From positions 1-25,619 of the IMG/VR virus record IMGVR_UViG_3300022198_002230: a DNA stretch of 25,619 nt. One strand, given 5' to 3'. The notes below the pieces were generated by a model that was given only the letters and a program-made list of their open reading frames with translations, made no database searches and had not been told where the DNA came from. The position numbers and the translations under genes were made by a program. This document shows positions 3,799-18,273 of the stretch, piece by piece (positions within the stretch are counted from its first letter, which is position 1; every line of letters starts with the position of its first letter). The DNA is from a virus.

Positions 3799-4159
3799 AG
3801 TATGCGTTTGCCATTTCTTGTGTGATTAGGTAGATGAGTAGTGACTTCATGATGTCCATGACCCCGTCCTTGAATCCACCCATAGCTGACACAGGGTCGA
3901 GTCTAAGGGATTGCTCGATGCCTAGCTCATCGAGCCCATCCTCGAAGCTAAGCATGCTCTTGAAGTCTTCGACAAGTTGAGCAGCAACTTCGTTGGTTGC
4001 ATCCATGTACCACTCTACGATAGGTATGGCGGGTAGGTCTAGCCAGTTCTCAAAGCCATGCTCATCTATGTCGTTGAGAATCATGCCGAGTGCTGTCTGC
4101 TCAGCCTTCGTCCCGTCCAGATGTTCCTTCATCCATTGGATTACTTCCTCCTGTGTCAT
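3779..4159 (-). CDS. Hypothetical acidic helical protein
   Basis: 126 aa, acidic, mostly helical by composition (MTQEEVIQWMKEHLDG at the N-terminus). A hydrophobic stretch near the C-terminus (MDIMKSLLIYLITQEMANAYY) could be a buried helix; it is too polar for a confident membrane call. No family recognised. It overlaps the following DnaA-like gene by 20 nt and the preceding 52-aa ORF by 59 nt, in keeping with the tight packing here. Confidence 0.7.
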   Translation of the reverse strand: MTQEEVIQWMKEHLDGTKAEQTALGMILNDIDEHGFENWLDLPAIPIVEWYMDATNEVAAQLVEDFKSMLSFEDGLDELGIEQSLRLDPVSAMGGFKDGVMDIMKSLLIYLITQEMANAYYGEHTH

Positions 4160-7532: not shown

Positions 7533-7546
7533 AAAATGATTGATAA

Positions 7547-7606
7547 GTATTGTGTGTATATATACTCTCTTCACTACGTTCAGAGAGAGTATATATACCA
7601 CACTAC
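7547..7606 (-). repeat. Long intergenic hairpin with shared loop (copy 1)
   Basis: Inverted repeat with a core stem of about 15 bp (GTATATATACTCTCT against its complement), extended by a mismatched outer stem of about 8 bp. On the minus strand the loop contains GAACGTAGTGA, which recurs in the hairpins at 8745-8803 and 10153-10211 although the stems differ. Neither side has a T-tract, so it is not an obvious intrinsic terminator. Strand is assigned by gene direction; the repeat itself is nearly symmetrical. Confidence 0.85.
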
Positions 7607-7612
7607 TAATAG

Positions 7613-8729: not shown

Positions 8730-8739
8730 TTGAAGTTTG
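8730..8739 (-). promoter_or_regulatory. Shared 5' leader motif CAAACTTCAA (copy 2)
   Basis: CAAACTTCAA on the minus strand, 10 nt before the ATG at 8719 and just downstream of the hairpin at 8745-8803. Confidence 0.75.
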
Positions 8740-8744
8740 TTATT

Positions 8745-8803
8745 GAGAGGTGTTGTATATATCTCTCTTCACTACGTTCAGAGAGATATATACTAACACT
8801 CTC
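8745..8803 (-). repeat. Long intergenic hairpin with shared loop (copy 2)
   Basis: Inner stem of 14 bp (GTATATATCTCTCT with its complement) and an outer stem of about 9 bp (GTGTT/AACAC and GAGAG/CTCTC with a one-base bulge). The minus-strand loop is GAACGTAGTGA, identical to copies 1 and 3. It begins at the stop of the 48-aa gene and ends 5 nt before the leader motif. No T-tract. Confidence 0.85.
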
Positions 8804-8949
8804 TATTTGAGGCTGAACATCGTGTCCTTGAAGGCCTCTTCGAGAATCCTTTTGTTGATATTGTCTGCTTTGAAGTACGCCTCGATGAGTGCACGTTCGA
8901 AGCTCCCGCAGTTCTGCTGTCGCAGTTCAAGTCGTTCGTATTGTGTCAT
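8803..8949 (-). CDS. Hypothetical small helical protein
   Basis: 48 aa from ATG 8949 (MTQYERLELRQQNCGSFERALIEAY...), ending KDTMFSLK. The start overlaps the stop of the preceding gene by 4 nt; a longer frame would give an arginine-rich shadow of that gene. Helical, unknown function. Confidence 0.65.
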   Translation of the reverse strand: MTQYERLELRQQNCGSFERALIEAYFKADNINKRILEEAFKDTMFSLK

Positions 8950-9259: not shown

Positions 9260-9570
9260 AGGTCAATGATTACGCCCTTCTCTTCGAGGGCATCGGTGAT
9301 ATATTCAGGGAGTTCGAAGCATCCATCCCACCCAGTGAGGCGTACATCTCCGTTGTCATCCCAGCACACTTCGAGCACACCGCCTGCATAGAAGCGCTCC
9401 CCCCTTGACTCAACGTCATACGTCTTGTACCGTCCACCATACCTGTGGTTGGGGTCAATCTCGATGGTGGTGTCCATCTCTACGTTCCCTGCTCGGTCGT
9501 GGTCGCCGTACAGGGTGCTTGTCATAGCTACGTGTGGTAGCGTGGTCTTGAAGTTGAGTTTGAATTTCAT
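9256..9570 (-). CDS. Hypothetical beta-rich protein
   Basis: 104 aa. Strand-rich throughout: MKFKLNFKTTLPHVAMTSTLYG, VEMDTTIEIDP, GGVLEVCWDDNGDVRL, then a helix near the end (LPEYITDALEEKG). No family recognised. Overlaps both neighbours by 4 nt. Confidence 0.7.
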   Translation of the reverse strand: MKFKLNFKTTLPHVAMTSTLYGDHDRAGNVEMDTTIEIDPNHRYGGRYKTYDVESRGERFYAGGVLEVCWDDNGDVRLTGWDGCFELPEYITDALEEKGVIIDL

Positions 9571-9842
9571 TGGTCGATGTTTTCGGAGTCCACGATGATG
9601 TCGCAGAGCAACTTCTCTTGGAGTTGCTCGGCATCGTCAGCCCATGAAACGAGCGTGTCGATGGCAAGTTTTGCCGTGGATGTGCCAGCTTGTGGCACGT
9701 TTGAGAGGATGGAGGCCATCCCCTTCACGTCGTCAGGCACAAGCCGAGCGCACCGATTGAGTTCGTTGAGTCGCTTCCCGTGGTGGAAGTCGTTGAGGAA
9801 GAGCACCGCCGCACCGACGGGCTGAGAAAAGAAGTTGTCCAT
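9567..9842 (-). CDS. Hypothetical helical protein expressed behind a hammerhead ribozyme
   Basis: 91 aa, helical (MDNFFSQPVGAAVLFLNDFHHG...; DTLVSWADDAEQLQEKLLCDII). No family recognised. The ATG at 9842 lies 27 nt downstream of the predicted cut site of the hammerhead at 9864-9913 and 12 nt after the shared leader motif. It heads a coupled run that continues to 8803. Confidence 0.7.
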   Translation of the reverse strand: MDNFFSQPVGAAVLFLNDFHHGKRLNELNRCARLVPDDVKGMASILSNVPQAGTSTAKLAIDTLVSWADDAEQLQEKLLCDIIVDSENIDQ

Positions 9843-9854
9843 GAGATTGGAAAT

Positions 9855-9864
9855 TTGAAGTTTG
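9855..9864 (-). promoter_or_regulatory. Shared 5' leader motif CAAACTTCAA (copy 3)
   Basis: Minus-strand CAAACTTCAA, 12 nt before the ATG at 9842. Its first base is the last base of hammerhead stem I (strand 3' of the cut), so it stays on the mRNA after cleavage. Confidence 0.75.
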
Positions 9865-9913
9865 ATACAGACCCCGTAAGGGGTTTCGCCTATTCAAGGC
9901 TCATCAGTGTACC
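9864..9913 (-). ncRNA. Type-I hammerhead ribozyme 1
   Basis: All invariant hammerhead parts are present in order on the minus strand: stem I strand GGTACA, CTGATGA, stem II GCC-TTGAATA-GGC, GAAA, stem III ACCCC-TTAC-GGGGT, C, then stem I strand TGTATC. The cleavage triplet is GTC at 9872-9870, so the cut falls between 9870 and 9869. Stems II and III are closed by loops and stem I is open, which makes it type I. Stem I pairs over 6 bp with one G-U. It occupies the gap between the stop at 9921 and the ATG at 9842. Cleavage would leave a 27-nt leader on the downstream gene. Confidence 0.92.
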
Positions 9914-10136: not shown

Positions 10137-10146
10137 TTGAAGTTTG
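10137..10146 (-). promoter_or_regulatory. Shared 5' leader motif CAAACTTCAA (copy 4)
   Basis: Minus-strand CAAACTTCAA, 12 nt before the ATG at 10124. Here it is part of ATGTCAAACTTCAA, the same 14-mer that starts the coding region of the histone-like gene at 12120. Confidence 0.75.
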
Positions 10147-10152
10147 ACATTT

Positions 10153-10211
10153 GAGAGGGTTCGTATATTACCTCTCTTCACTACGTTCAGAGAGTAATAT
10201 ACTCACCTCTC
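10153..10211 (-). repeat. Long intergenic hairpin with shared loop (copy 3)
   Basis: Inner stem GTATATTAC/GTAATATAC plus CTCTCT/AGAGAG (one-base bulge), outer stem GAGAGG/CCTCTC, minus-strand loop GAACGTAGTGA. The stem sequence differs from copies 1 and 2 on both sides at once, so pairing is kept. It lies between the small membrane-peptide ORF and the leader motif of the 10124 gene. Confidence 0.85.
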
Positions 10212-10213
10212 TA

Positions 10214-10297
10214 TTAGGATTGGAGGATTGCCACCACCAAAAGCGTGGCCATCCATGCAAGGAACGCGAGGAACGCGATGTTCAATCGTTTGTTCAT
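10214..10297 (-). CDS. Putative 27-aa single-pass membrane peptide
   Basis: ATG at 10297, stop at 10214. The basic head MNKRLN is followed by about 20 hydrophobic residues (IAFLAFLAWMATLLVVAILQ) and a short tail. That is the pattern of a small inner-membrane protein with its N-terminus inside. It fills the gap between the hairpin at 10153-10211 and the stop at 10313. Phages encode such peptides as lysis modulators, superinfection-exclusion factors or toxins; which applies is unknown. Confidence 0.6.
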   Translation of the reverse strand: MNKRLNIAFLAFLAWMATLLVVAILQS

Positions 10298-10312: not shown

Positions 10313-10540
10313 TTATTGATTATCAACAGGTTCGATTGACTTGATGTTGTGTCCATTTGGCACAAGTTCGAGTGCTCTCTTACGCGCATGGTCGATCGAC
10401 CACGCCTTGAACGTGAGCGCATCCCAGTCATCTCGGTCGAAGCCGTAGTAGTAAACCATTCGGTACTCCTTAGAAGGAGTAGATTTGGGGAGCCAATCGC
10501 TCATCGTGCCCCGCTTGGGGTAGCGCTCCCATACGTTCAT
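10313..10540 (-). CDS. Hypothetical small protein
   Basis: 75 aa from ATG 10540 (MNVWERYPKRGTMSDWLPKSTPS...). YRMVYYYGFDRDDWDALTFKAWSIDHARKRALELV suggests strand-helix-strand-helix. ATGA coupling to the preceding gene decides the start. No family recognised. Confidence 0.65.
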   Translation of the reverse strand: MNVWERYPKRGTMSDWLPKSTPSKEYRMVYYYGFDRDDWDALTFKAWSIDHARKRALELVPNGHNIKSIEPVDNQ

Positions 10541-10908
10541 GTGAGCTTGATTTCGCAGTTGTTCTTGAAGTCCCAAATGGCTTCCTCACCACGCGCTTTC
10601 GCAAGTTCGAGAGCCACTTGCTTGGACTTGACTACGTCAGAGATTTCGATGAAGGCATAGTTGTCGTCGTTCACCCACGCACCGATTACCTGCATACCCG
10701 TGTCGGGCTGACGCTTCATGAACTCAACTTTGAGTTTCATGATTTCTCGGAACTTGTTGAAAGACAAGTCGTTGTTGTCCTCCATCTCGACGGAATCCGC
10801 CGCACCTCCAACGGCATAGCCGTCATTTCCTGCATAGGTGAGCAGGTCAGCGTTTACGCTGAAGCCCTCGCTCTCTTGAACGAGGAAGTATAAGGATTTA
10901 ATTGTCAT
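10537..10908 (-). CDS. Hypothetical protein expressed behind a hammerhead ribozyme
   Basis: 123 aa from ATG 10908 (MTIKSLYFLVQESEGFSVNADLLTY...). Mixed fold: two strands, a Gly-rich turn (GNDGYAVGGAAD), a helix (NKFREIMKLKVEFM), a strand (NYAFIEISDVV) and a C-terminal helix. No family recognised. The start lies 27 nt after the predicted cut of hammerhead 2 and 12 nt after the leader motif. Confidence 0.7.
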   Translation of the reverse strand: MTIKSLYFLVQESEGFSVNADLLTYAGNDGYAVGGAADSVEMEDNNDLSFNKFREIMKLKVEFMKRQPDTGMQVIGAWVNDDNYAFIEISDVVKSKQVALELAKARGEEAIWDFKNNCEIKLT

Positions 10909-10920
10909 CGTAGATGAATT

Positions 10921-10930
10921 TTGAAGTTTG
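10921..10930 (-). promoter_or_regulatory. Shared 5' leader motif CAAACTTCAA (copy 5)
   Basis: Minus-strand CAAACTTCAA, 12 nt before the ATG at 10908, overlapping the end of hammerhead 2 by one base exactly as copy 3 does for hammerhead 1. Confidence 0.75.
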
Positions 10931-10983
10931 ATACAGACACCACTTTCGTGGTGTTTCGTCCAATCAGGACTCATCAGTGTACC
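10930..10983 (-). ncRNA. Type-I hammerhead ribozyme 2
   Basis: Minus strand: stem I strand GGTACA, CTGATGA, stem II GTCC-TGATT-GGAC, GAAA, stem III ACACCAC with GAAA tetraloop and GTGGTGT, C, stem I strand TGTATC. The cleavage triplet GTC is at 10938-10936, so the cut falls between 10936 and 10935. The core and stem I equal hammerhead 1, whereas stems II and III differ in sequence and length but remain fully paired. It lies between the stop at 10996 and the ATG at 10908; cleavage would leave a 27-nt leader, the same length as at hammerhead 1. Confidence 0.93.
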
Positions 10984-10995
10984 TGTGAATTGAGA

Positions 10996-11142
10996 TTACA
11001 TCTCAATCAAGTCCTCCAAAGTCATCTGCTCAAGGCAGGTGAGTTCGTCCCACTCAGCGGTCGCACGGACCGCGTCGAAGGAAAGGTGAAGGTCGAGGAG
11101 GTCAGCGATGAGCTGACGGCGGATGTCTGCAAATGTCTGCAT
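10996..11142 (-). CDS. Hypothetical small helical protein
   Basis: 48 aa from ATG 11142 (MQTFADIRRQLIADLLDLHLSFD...), ending TLEDLIEM. The leader motif ends 12 nt before this ATG. Acidic, helical, no family recognised. Its stop lies 12 nt from hammerhead 2. Confidence 0.65.
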   Translation of the reverse strand: MQTFADIRRQLIADLLDLHLSFDAVRATAEWDELTCLEQMTLEDLIEM

Positions 11143-11164: not shown

Positions 11165-11181
11165 AAAATTGAGTTCAAAGT

Positions 11182-11236
11182 GTATCTAAGATATATACAC
11201 TCTTCATAAATGAAGAGAGTGTATATATCAAGATAC
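11182..11236 (-). repeat. Long intergenic hairpin (copy 4, different loop)
   Basis: Stem of about 18 bp with one bulge (GATATATACACTCTTCAT against its complement), extended by GTATCT/AGATAC; the loop is only 2-4 nt. It occupies the same position as copies 1-3 (before the leader motif) but lacks the GAACGTAGTGA loop. No T-tract. Confidence 0.8.
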
Positions 11237-11245
11237 TCTAAGGGG

Positions 11246-11542: not shown

Positions 11543-12120
11543 AGTTGGAATGGAACATCTTCGAAGCTAACTTCGTTAGAAGGGGAGGAAGCAGGAGTCA
11601 TAGACTCCATCGCAATCGCAAGGCAGGCCGTGAGAGCCTCAATCTTTGCTTCCAAGGAAGCAATTCGAGAGTCATCAGCAGTCACTGCTTTAGCAGTGGA
11701 AGCTTCGGCCTCAGCCTTGCGAGCCTCTGCCTCTGCCCTGCGCTTTGCGGCAAGCTTGACTTTCGGTGAGTTGGCTTTAGCCAAAGACCGCTTCTCATCC
11801 ATCTCTGCAAGAGATGCTTTAGCTTCGGAGACCGAAGCTGTCTTAGCCTTCGGAGAAGGCTTGACTGGAGAGTCAGCCTTCCCATGGAAGGCTTTCTCTT
11901 GGCGGTCAGCAACTCGTTGCTGTGGAGTTGCCTTCTTCGTCGTCTTACGACGACGCTTCGTAGCCTTCTTCGAAGGCTTGTCGGCAACCTCTTCGAGGTT
12001 GTTGATGAAGTCCAAGGCCTCACTCAGCAGCTTCGCTGCTGCTGCTTTGCGGGCTGCTGTTGGACGGAAGGTGGCTTGGTTGACAGCCTTACGGCAGTCG
12101 GAGAAATTGAAGTTTGACAT
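11539..12120 (-). CDS. Histone H1-like basic Ala/Lys-rich protein
   Basis: 193 aa. Residues 15-40 are Ala-rich helix; 48-70 are strongly basic (KPSKKATKRRRKTTKKA), followed by Lys/Pro/Ala/Ser repeats and an Ala/Glu/Arg helix like histone H1 or Hc1-type proteins. The C-terminal part has a possible coiled coil (SRIASLEAKIEALTACLAI) and ends SFEDVPFQL, an acidic-hydrophobic tip recalling SSB tails. Likely a DNA-binding or nucleoid protein, acting on phage or host DNA. It is the first gene of the minus-strand unit, directly after the hairpin 12121-12175 and the structured region beyond. The shared leader motif lies inside the start of its coding sequence. Confidence 0.7.
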   Translation of the reverse strand: MSNFNFSDCRKAVNQATFRPTAARKAAAAKLLSEALDFINNLEEVADKPSKKATKRRRKTTKKATPQQRVADRQEKAFHGKADSPVKPSPKAKTASVSEAKASLAEMDEKRSLAKANSPKVKLAAKRRAEAEARKAEAEASTAKAVTADDSRIASLEAKIEALTACLAIAMESMTPASSPSNEVSFEDVPFQL

Positions 12121-12175
12121 GAGATAATGTATTAAATGAAACTCATAGAGTTTCGTTTCATTTAATACATATCTC
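12121..12175 (-). repeat. Long hairpin abutting the start codon of the histone-like gene
   Basis: Stem of about 21 bp (GTATTAAATGAAAC with its complement, plus GAGATA/TATCTC, one bulged base) with a small apical stem GAAACTC/GAGTTTC. On the minus strand its last base is next to the ATG at 12120-12118, so no free leader is left. That could restrain translation or mark a processing site. Confidence 0.8.
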
Positions 12176-12180
12176 TAGGG

Positions 12181-12487
12181 TTCGGTGTATTCACTACACT
12201 ATCGAAGATAGTAGTAGTGGAGATGAAAGCCGCTAACACATTGAGAGATAACTCGTTATCTCCGTATGTTAGCCATCACGAAGACCGACCAAAACGGCAC
12301 CGATTGTTTCCCCTGAAAGGGGAAGAGTCAAGGTCGAAGGATGGATTGGGGAGGGATTGTCCCACCGCTTAGGAGACGGCGCAAGCTTCGCAGGTCTCAT
12401 GCAGTGGTAGAGCTAACCTTACCTAACTGACTGAAAGTCAGTAGGTAAAAAGCTAAAAGTATTCCAGCAACTATCGAAGATAGTTGG
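12181..12487 (-). ncRNA. Structured RNA candidate leading the early transcript
   Basis: At least six nested stem-loops fill 300 nt without a credible ORF: CACTAC(A)CTATC/GATAG..GTAGTG (12191-12219); GCTAACA..GAGATAAC/GTTATCTC..TGTTAGC (12232-12273); CGACC..TTCCCC/GGGGAA..GGTCG (12285-12336); CCACTGC/GCGGTGG around GAGAC/GTCTC (12362-12407); AGCT..TTACCT-ACTGAC/GTCAGT..AGGTAA (12411-12454); CAACTATC/GATAGTTG (12468-12486). Several stems gain U-G pairs only when read on the minus strand (T opposite G in CCACTGC/GCGGTGG; TT opposite GG below TTACCT), where the plus strand has C-A mismatches. So the minus strand is the likelier RNA: a long 5' leader or a separate ncRNA ahead of the early genes. 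I could not match it to a known RNA class. Confidence 0.6.
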
Positions 12488-17469: not shown

Positions 17470-17543
17470 TGGGGCGTAGTTCAGTTGGTTAGAGCGTCTG
17501 TCTTATACACAGGAAGTCGTGGGTTCAAGTCCCACCGCCCCAA
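17470..17543 (+). tRNA. tRNA-Ile (anticodon UAU)
   Basis: Canonical cloverleaf, 74 nt: acceptor TGGGGCG/CGCCCCA, TA at 8-9, D-arm GTTC/GAGC, anticodon arm TCTGT-CTTATAC-ACAGG giving anticodon UAU, T-arm GTGGG-TTCAAGT-CCCAC. It reads AUA. CCA is not encoded. Confidence 0.93.
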
Positions 17544-17998: not shown

Positions 17999-18072
17999 GC
18001 GCCCGTAGCTCAGCTGGACAGAGCATTTGCCTTCTAAGCAAACGGTCACAGGTTCGAATCCTGTCGGGCGTA
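17999..18072 (+). tRNA. tRNA-Arg (anticodon UCU)
   Basis: Canonical cloverleaf, 74 nt: acceptor GCGCCCG/CGGGCGT (one G-U), TA at 8-9, D-arm GCTC/GAGC, anticodon arm TTTGC-CTTCTAA-GCAAA with anticodon UCU, T-arm ACAGG-TTCGAAT-CCTGT. It reads AGA, a codon common in the downstream late genes. CCA not encoded. Confidence 0.94.
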
Positions 18073-18087
18073 CTAAATTGAATTAAA

Positions 18088-18273
18088 ATGGCTGATTACA
18101 TCTGCAACTGCAAAGAGAAACACGAAGAGTCAAAAAGCGGCGTATCCATTAAGTTTGGATCTGACGGAGCTTACCACGACATAAAGTGTCCATGCGGTAA
18201 GTACATGGAGCTCAAGAACCCAAAGTCTGGGGCACCAAGTTTTAGAAGCAACCGTTATGGTCAGGTATTCTGA
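18088..18273 (+). CDS. Small zinc-ribbon-like protein
   Basis: 61 aa: MADYICNCKEKHEESKSGVS..., then HDIKCPCGKYMELK and SGAPSFRSNRYGQVF. Cysteines in two C-x-C pairs (CNC and CPC) could hold one zinc. Such small proteins often lie just before terminase genes in marine phages; function unknown. The A/T-rich context before the ATG (TTGAATTAAA) fits the local start style. Overlaps TerL by 17 nt. Confidence 0.7.
   Translation: MADYICNCKEKHEESKSGVSIKFGSDGAYHDIKCPCGKYMELKNPKSGAPSFRSNRYGQVF

Follow-up and report, generated by a model that had tools for sequence, protein, structure and literature searches.

Hammerhead ribozymes with covarying stems at gene junctions of a putative Bacteroidota phage: probable self-cleaving punctuation of polycistronic mRNA

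The window, that is, the whole stretch of DNA that was analyzed, comprises 25,619 nucleotides of an IMG/VR virus record. Its minus-strand block contains primase/helicase, DUF3799 (PDDEXK-like) and DnaA-C-like genes, and its plus-strand block contains the terminase and portal genes. The large terminase shares 41-49% identity with its counterparts in Flavobacterium phages and an uncultured podovirus; phages of Cellulophaga and of other Bacteroidota gave further matches, and the window virus is probably a Bacteroidota phage. Two tRNA genes are located just upstream of the terminase gene (17470-17543 and 17999-18072, plus strand). The minus-strand block harbors two hammerheads, HHR2 and HHR1, with the following features:

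10930-10983, minus strand: HHR2, type I hammerhead ribozyme, assigned from core, helices, descriptor, covariation and fold
10983-10978/10935-10930, minus strand: HHR2 stem I, followed by the core CUGAUGA (10977-10971) and stem II (10970-10958)
10957-10955, minus strand: HHR2 GAA, followed by stem III (10954-10937) and C17 (10936)
10936/10935, minus strand: predicted cleavage site of HHR2
10909-10935, minus strand: 27-nt 5' leader after HHR2 cleavage (UGUAUCAAACUUCAAAAUUCAUCUACG), by inspection
10537-10908, minus strand: g10908, the gene downstream of HHR2, 123 aa, with a weak phrog_17808 match
10996-11142, minus strand: upstream neighbor of HHR2, a gene whose stop codon ends 12 nt ahead of the ribozyme
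9864-9913, minus strand: HHR1, second type I hammerhead, with predicted cleavage between 9870 and 9869 and with stem I and leader as in HHR2
9843-9869, minus strand: 27-nt 5' leader after HHR1 cleavage, by inspection
9567-9842, minus strand: gene downstream of HHR1, 91 aa
9921-10124, minus strand: upstream neighbor of HHR1, a gene whose stop codon ends 7 nt ahead of the ribozyme

HHR2 reads GGUACA-CUGAUGA-GUCC(UGAUU)GGAC-GAA-ACACCAC(GAAA)GUGGUGU-C-UGUAUC from 10983 to 10930 on the minus strand, with a stem I of 6 bp, a stem II of 4 bp and a stem III of 7 bp that includes the A15.1-U16.1 pair and carries a GAAA loop. HHR1 (9913 to 9864, minus strand) reads GGUACA-CUGAUGA-GCCU(UGAAU)AGGC-GAA-ACCCC(UUAC)GGGGU-C-UGUAUC, its stems I, II and III being 6, 4 and 5 bp long and its stem III loop being UUAC. 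Both copies possess the CUGANGA core and the G10.1-C11.1 pair (CUGAUGA-G...C-GAAA), and both show the type I layout, in which loops close helices II and III and helix I is open-ended. The cleavage triplet of HHR2 is GUC at 10938-10936 (minus strand), in agreement with the NUH rule. All structural criteria open to a check from sequence thus identify the element at 10930-10983 as a hammerhead, and site-specific self-cleavage after C10936 is predicted. A first-pass annotation had already described it as a second hammerhead that shares stem I and the core with the first one; indeed, the ribozyme is complete, with an intact core and three paired helices, and GGUACA/UGUAUC as well as CUGAUGA are identical in the two copies. 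It had also stated that stems II and III differ in sequence and length. This holds in full for stem III, whereas stem II differs in sequence only, comprising 4 bp and a 5-nt loop in both copies. The perfect pairing of both stems despite these changes and the GAAA loop of HHR2, which it had reported as well, were found again when the two sequences were read.

A strict descriptor matched the window exactly twice, at HHR1 and HHR2, and none of 1,500 dinucleotide-preserving shuffles. When the element is folded with flanks of 0 or 4 bases, the minimum free energy structure is the native hammerhead. Extending the flanks to 20 nt gives HHR2 an alternative fold as its predicted minimum, 3.8 kcal/mol below the native one, in a model that leaves out tertiary contacts; for HHR1 no competing fold was predicted at this length. 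A plus-strand match at 18260 (12.3 bits) lies inside the terminase gene and was rejected as a chance match. Also rejected were sub-threshold Rfam matches to plastid UTRs, G-CSF, sR20 and ZEB2, which represent chance, hairpin look-alikes or tRNA antisense.

Homologues were collected from IMG/VR with two patterns. The first held the core constant together with four pairs of stem I and left stems II and III free beyond the core-proximal base; it retrieved 49 matches (32 unique) on 45 contigs, and stems II and III were both paired in 49/49. The second used a stem II pattern with stems I and III unconstrained and yielded at least 120 stretches plus 18 genome-assembly matches. Among the 133 unique matches of this pattern that were listed, 120 were full hammerheads, and the inner stem II pairs were complementary at 3/3 positions in 127, with about 5% expected by chance. 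In an alignment of 30 sequences, 100% of the cells pair, a value that is partly due to construction because the selecting descriptor requires pairing; the figures of 49/49 and 127/133 are free of this bias. Changes on both sides were observed for 12 of the 15 pairs, compared with a mean of 6.7 in shuffled controls and 1-5 in slid controls. None of 500 shuffles reached 12/15, and the covariation score of every slid or shuffled control was far below that of the alignment. The A15.1-U16.1 pair is invariant in 29 distinct sequences. On this comparative evidence, the hammerhead fold is under selection, while catalysis is a prediction. The earlier annotation had drawn the same conclusion about selection from the two paralogues, which by themselves are thin evidence; the homologues answer the question clearly.

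The 215 unique copies collected are highly regular. Stem I is exactly 6 bp long in 205 of them, with an A on its 5' side in 202 and on its 3' side in 206, and position 17 is a C in 202 copies and an A in 13, the scan having demanded an H. Loop II resembles U-N-A-A-U with a conserved U..U, its composition being biased by the second pattern. The regularity of stem I and loop II suggests a shared tertiary contact; natural hammerheads that cleave fast have one between stem I and loop II. Records with a match contain one to six copies, mostly near one another, and the sequences were mostly gathered by ribozyme patterns, so that the counts give no prevalence in phages. Two cultured phages carry unannotated copies: Flavobacterium phage elemoA (NC_055852, L193) at 17351-17286 on the minus strand (52.4 bits), 19 nt ahead of gp69, and Agrobacterium phage OLIVR1 (NC_055840, L199), placed at 3956-4013 (52.6 bits) or at 3891-3948. 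A search of MW202828, the phage isolate whose terminase comes closest, gave no hammerhead match. In L006 (4209-4420) and L044, two hammerheads lie in direct tandem ahead of one gene, and the second L006 copy has a stem III insert of 96 nt.

The junction upstream of g10908 was read by hand in 24 distinct orthologues from IMG/VR (the window counts as one) whose upstream sequence was long enough. The gene likely starts at the ATG at 10908, and the called 145-aa ORF from 10974 would open inside the ribozyme. Hammerheads were present at 19 of the 24 junctions, 17 of them compact and two with large stem III inserts. The compact copies contain 5 distinct stem I, 8 stem II and 11 stem III sequences around an intact core, and in nearly all of them the leader AAACUUCAA...AUG follows. 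The first-pass annotation had proposed an alignment of homologues as a check and had named random drift of the stems or loss of the core as outcomes that would speak against the fold. All 17 of these orthologous copies have an intact core and stems that all pair; drift and core loss were looked for in the homologues and were not seen. At two junctions (L196 and L206) a long hairpin replaces the hammerhead while the leader is unchanged, and three of the 24 (L197, L210 and L170) lack an adjoining element. The hammerhead is dispensable, because of these three orthologous junctions and because of MW202828 with its lack of a match. In L173 and L197 a hammerhead sits one gene further upstream.

Two relatives had at first been taken for losses, L195 as a decayed ribozyme of which only the 3' half is visible and L194 as a junction that has lost it. 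Both interpretations were rejected, as each contains an intact hammerhead with a structured stem III insert of more than 100 nt. Structured inserts of 42-112 nt were observed in stem III of several copies (L194:4826-5000, L195:5093-5262, L006:4272-4420, L027, L064, L144 and L175). They are mutually dissimilar, match no Rfam family where searched, and are missing from most copies, including both copies of the window. No Rfam ligand-binding domain was found on the window elements at E<=1 or in L194 and L195 at gathering level. Between the hammerhead and the leader of L194 (5030-5130) lies a tRNA-like sequence with an AGCCGCA...TGCGGCT acceptor, the T-arm GGTTCGAATCC and an unusual middle; ARAGORN called no canonical tRNA at this junction.

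The position of the hammerheads relative to genes is also regular. The distance from the predicted cut to the ATG is exactly 27 nt for both HHR1 and HHR2. In 176 of 194 unique hammerheads from all loci, an ORF that opens with ATG and spans 40 aa or more begins no further than 120 nt from the cut, compared with 94/194 for random positions, which showed a broad spread, and 35/188 for the opposite strand. The median distance from cleavage to ATG is 26 nt (interquartile range 23-29 nt). An upstream stop codon lies no more than 150 nt from the hammerhead in 149 of the 215 copies, at a median of 12 nt. Scans of these junctions gave no sigma-70-like promoters beyond chance, no Bacteroidetes TAnnTTTG box and, on the minus strand, no terminator-like site. 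The proteins linked to the hammerheads had no Pfam match.

At other junctions of the minus-strand operon, long hairpins precede the same leader, and many of them share an internal mismatch and, at the tip, the conserved loop GAACGNAGUGA. Those located in the window include:

10145-10215, minus strand: long hairpin occupying the corresponding slot ahead of gene 10124; its loop, GAACGUAGUGA, is conserved
8735-8806, minus strand: hairpin of the same family, upstream of gene 8719
7545-7608, minus strand: hairpin of the same family, upstream of gene 7512
11180-11240, minus strand: related long hairpin with another loop, upstream of gene 11142

Compared with shuffles, the long hairpins fold with z values of -5 to -9, and they covary to some extent, at 5 of 14 pairs. 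They lack a T-run. One strict form was found in 30 IMG/VR stretches, many of them on hammerhead-bearing contigs, and the family with the GAACGNAGUGA loop has no Rfam family. At the junction of HHR1 the hammerhead is the minority form, present in two cases (the window and L164), and automatic calls placed hairpins at about 22 of 27. Their form suggests that the long hairpins are RNase III processing sites; a search for RNase III genes in the phages found none. Another very strong hairpin (z -9) at 12120-12190 on the minus strand ends right where gene 12120 has its start codon and is kept in several relatives; it could occlude the start of this gene.

Structure, conservation, covariation, position, spacing and exchange of the hammerheads are established. 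The best explanation, to which we assign a probability of roughly 0.78, is that they are self-cleaving punctuation that cuts polycistronic phage mRNA and defines the 5' end of the next cistron, and that they are exchangeable with hairpins. A hammerhead located between two co-directional minus-strand genes on the replication-gene side of the genome, as in the window, would be transcribed as part of a polycistronic RNA, fold, and cut itself after C10936. The layout points to co-transcription of the flanking genes, and cleavage would be expected in the infected cell. The body of the ribozyme would stay with the upstream cistron and give it a structured 3' terminus with a 2',3'-cyclic phosphate, and the downstream cistron would receive a 27-nt leader with a 5'-OH (UGUAUCAAACUUCAA...AUG), which would place its start codon at a fixed distance. 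The benefit would probably be the separation of cistrons together with a 5' end that is set for translation, mRNA stability, or both. The hammerhead would be one of several swappable operon elements, with a hairpin resembling an RNase III site preceding the same leader elsewhere. A stronger version, which we advance tentatively and at somewhat short of even odds, is that the hammerhead and the hairpin cut by a host nuclease, each of which directly follows a stop codon and precedes the same leader, are interchangeable punctuation and equivalent to selection.

Several other explanations were weighed against the punctuation reading. The hammerhead might be a switch for the downstream gene in place of a constitutive cutter, with cleavage responding to Mg2+, a protein or a stem III ligand; the structured inserts of several relatives and the competing fold of HHR2 with longer flanks are in line with such a regulated ribozyme. 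However, the inserts are unlike one another and mostly absent, the window copies have the minimal loops GAAA and UUAC, the downstream genes are not conserved across hammerhead families, and no known aptamer was matched, so that we regard regulation as unlikely. A less likely extension of the interchangeable-punctuation version, and a rather improbable one, is that the insert-bearing hammerheads in particular are natural ligand- or protein-responsive ribozymes. Hammerhead cleavage chemistry generates 5'-OH ends, and together with the fixed short leaders this could mean that the main benefit is a disguised 5' end, the mRNA resisting host decay that depends on a 5'-monophosphate or a host RNA-targeting defence, and not the separation of cistrons itself. 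Yet processing at the RNase III-like hairpins that share this slot would give 5'-monophosphates, and we consider this quite improbable.

Pairs of hammerheads 200-1,100 nt apart, as seen in the window and in several relatives, would also fit the release of a segment (about 1.07 kb in the window) that is circularized or handled as RNA with 5'-OH and 2',3'-cyclic-phosphate ends, as in retrozymes. Against this release stand the single hammerheads of many records, the lack of an RtcB ligase in the 20 records searched, and the spacing rule, which ties each hammerhead to a start codon and not to another hammerhead; it is very improbable. Finally, conservation could act on the DNA, as a site for protein binding or recombination, with only an incidental likeness to a hammerhead. 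The leader motif TCAAACTTCAA, which is common to junctions without ribozymes, would agree with this, but compensatory changes in all three stems, invariant catalytic core positions and the strand-specific placement ahead of start codons make it barely credible. The spacing, the hairpin exchange and the stem III inserts make the purpose of phage hammerheads testable. An earlier suggestion of 2011 becomes specific predictions: 5' ends at 10935 for HHR2 and at 9869 for HHR1, each 27 nt ahead of the ATG. The relatives provide natural experiments, in which one junction has a hammerhead, an insert-bearing hammerhead, a hairpin or nothing adjacent, mostly with the same leader.

Phage T7 has RNase III processing sites between its early genes. 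They are likewise structured intercistronic elements at which polycistronic phage mRNA is cut, and the hairpins described here look similar. Unlike the T7 sites, the hammerhead is protein-free, and it is for the hairpins that we infer cutting by RNase III. HHR2 belongs to the same structural class as RF00163 (Hammerhead_1, Rfam), with E = 7e-4 against the full model within the window record. Rfam misses both window copies because the 19.4 bits of HHR2 fall short of the gathering score (34), which is a detection threshold and not a biochemical criterion, and because HHR1 is not reported. The Rfam hammerhead model thus overlooks these compact copies, and cultured Flavobacterium and Agrobacterium phages hold unannotated ones.

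In the literature searched, no description was found of the start-codon spacing, the hairpin exchange or the phage stem III inserts; this absence carries little weight, since the majority of subscription papers lay outside the search. Phage hammerheads are known to flank genes, and in 2011 it was proposed that clustered copies process the long transcripts of phages (PMC3088659). Example hammerheads cleaved in vitro and in E. coli, and a 5' end was mapped in haloviruses (PMC3088659). A review of 2017 regarded the role of prokaryotic (bacterial and phage) hammerheads as an open question (PMC6155905). The hammerhead class and the idea of transcript processing are already known, and the spacing, the hairpin swap and the inserts are the more interesting part. 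HHphage of HF1/HF2 (PMC3088659) belongs to an archaeal virus and has a variant core, whereas the present copies have the canonical core in what is probably a Bacteroidota phage. The copies are like the type I phage, prophage and bacterial hammerheads of Perreault et al. 2011 (PMC3088659) in their core, three helices and open helix I, and also in being clustered and flanking short phage gene blocks, an arrangement for which processing into single-gene mRNAs was proposed there. They differ from them in the compact 6-bp stem I between A and A and the UNAAU-like loop II, across 215 unique copies, in the cut about 26 nt ahead of the start codon, and in the swap with hairpins at the same junction.
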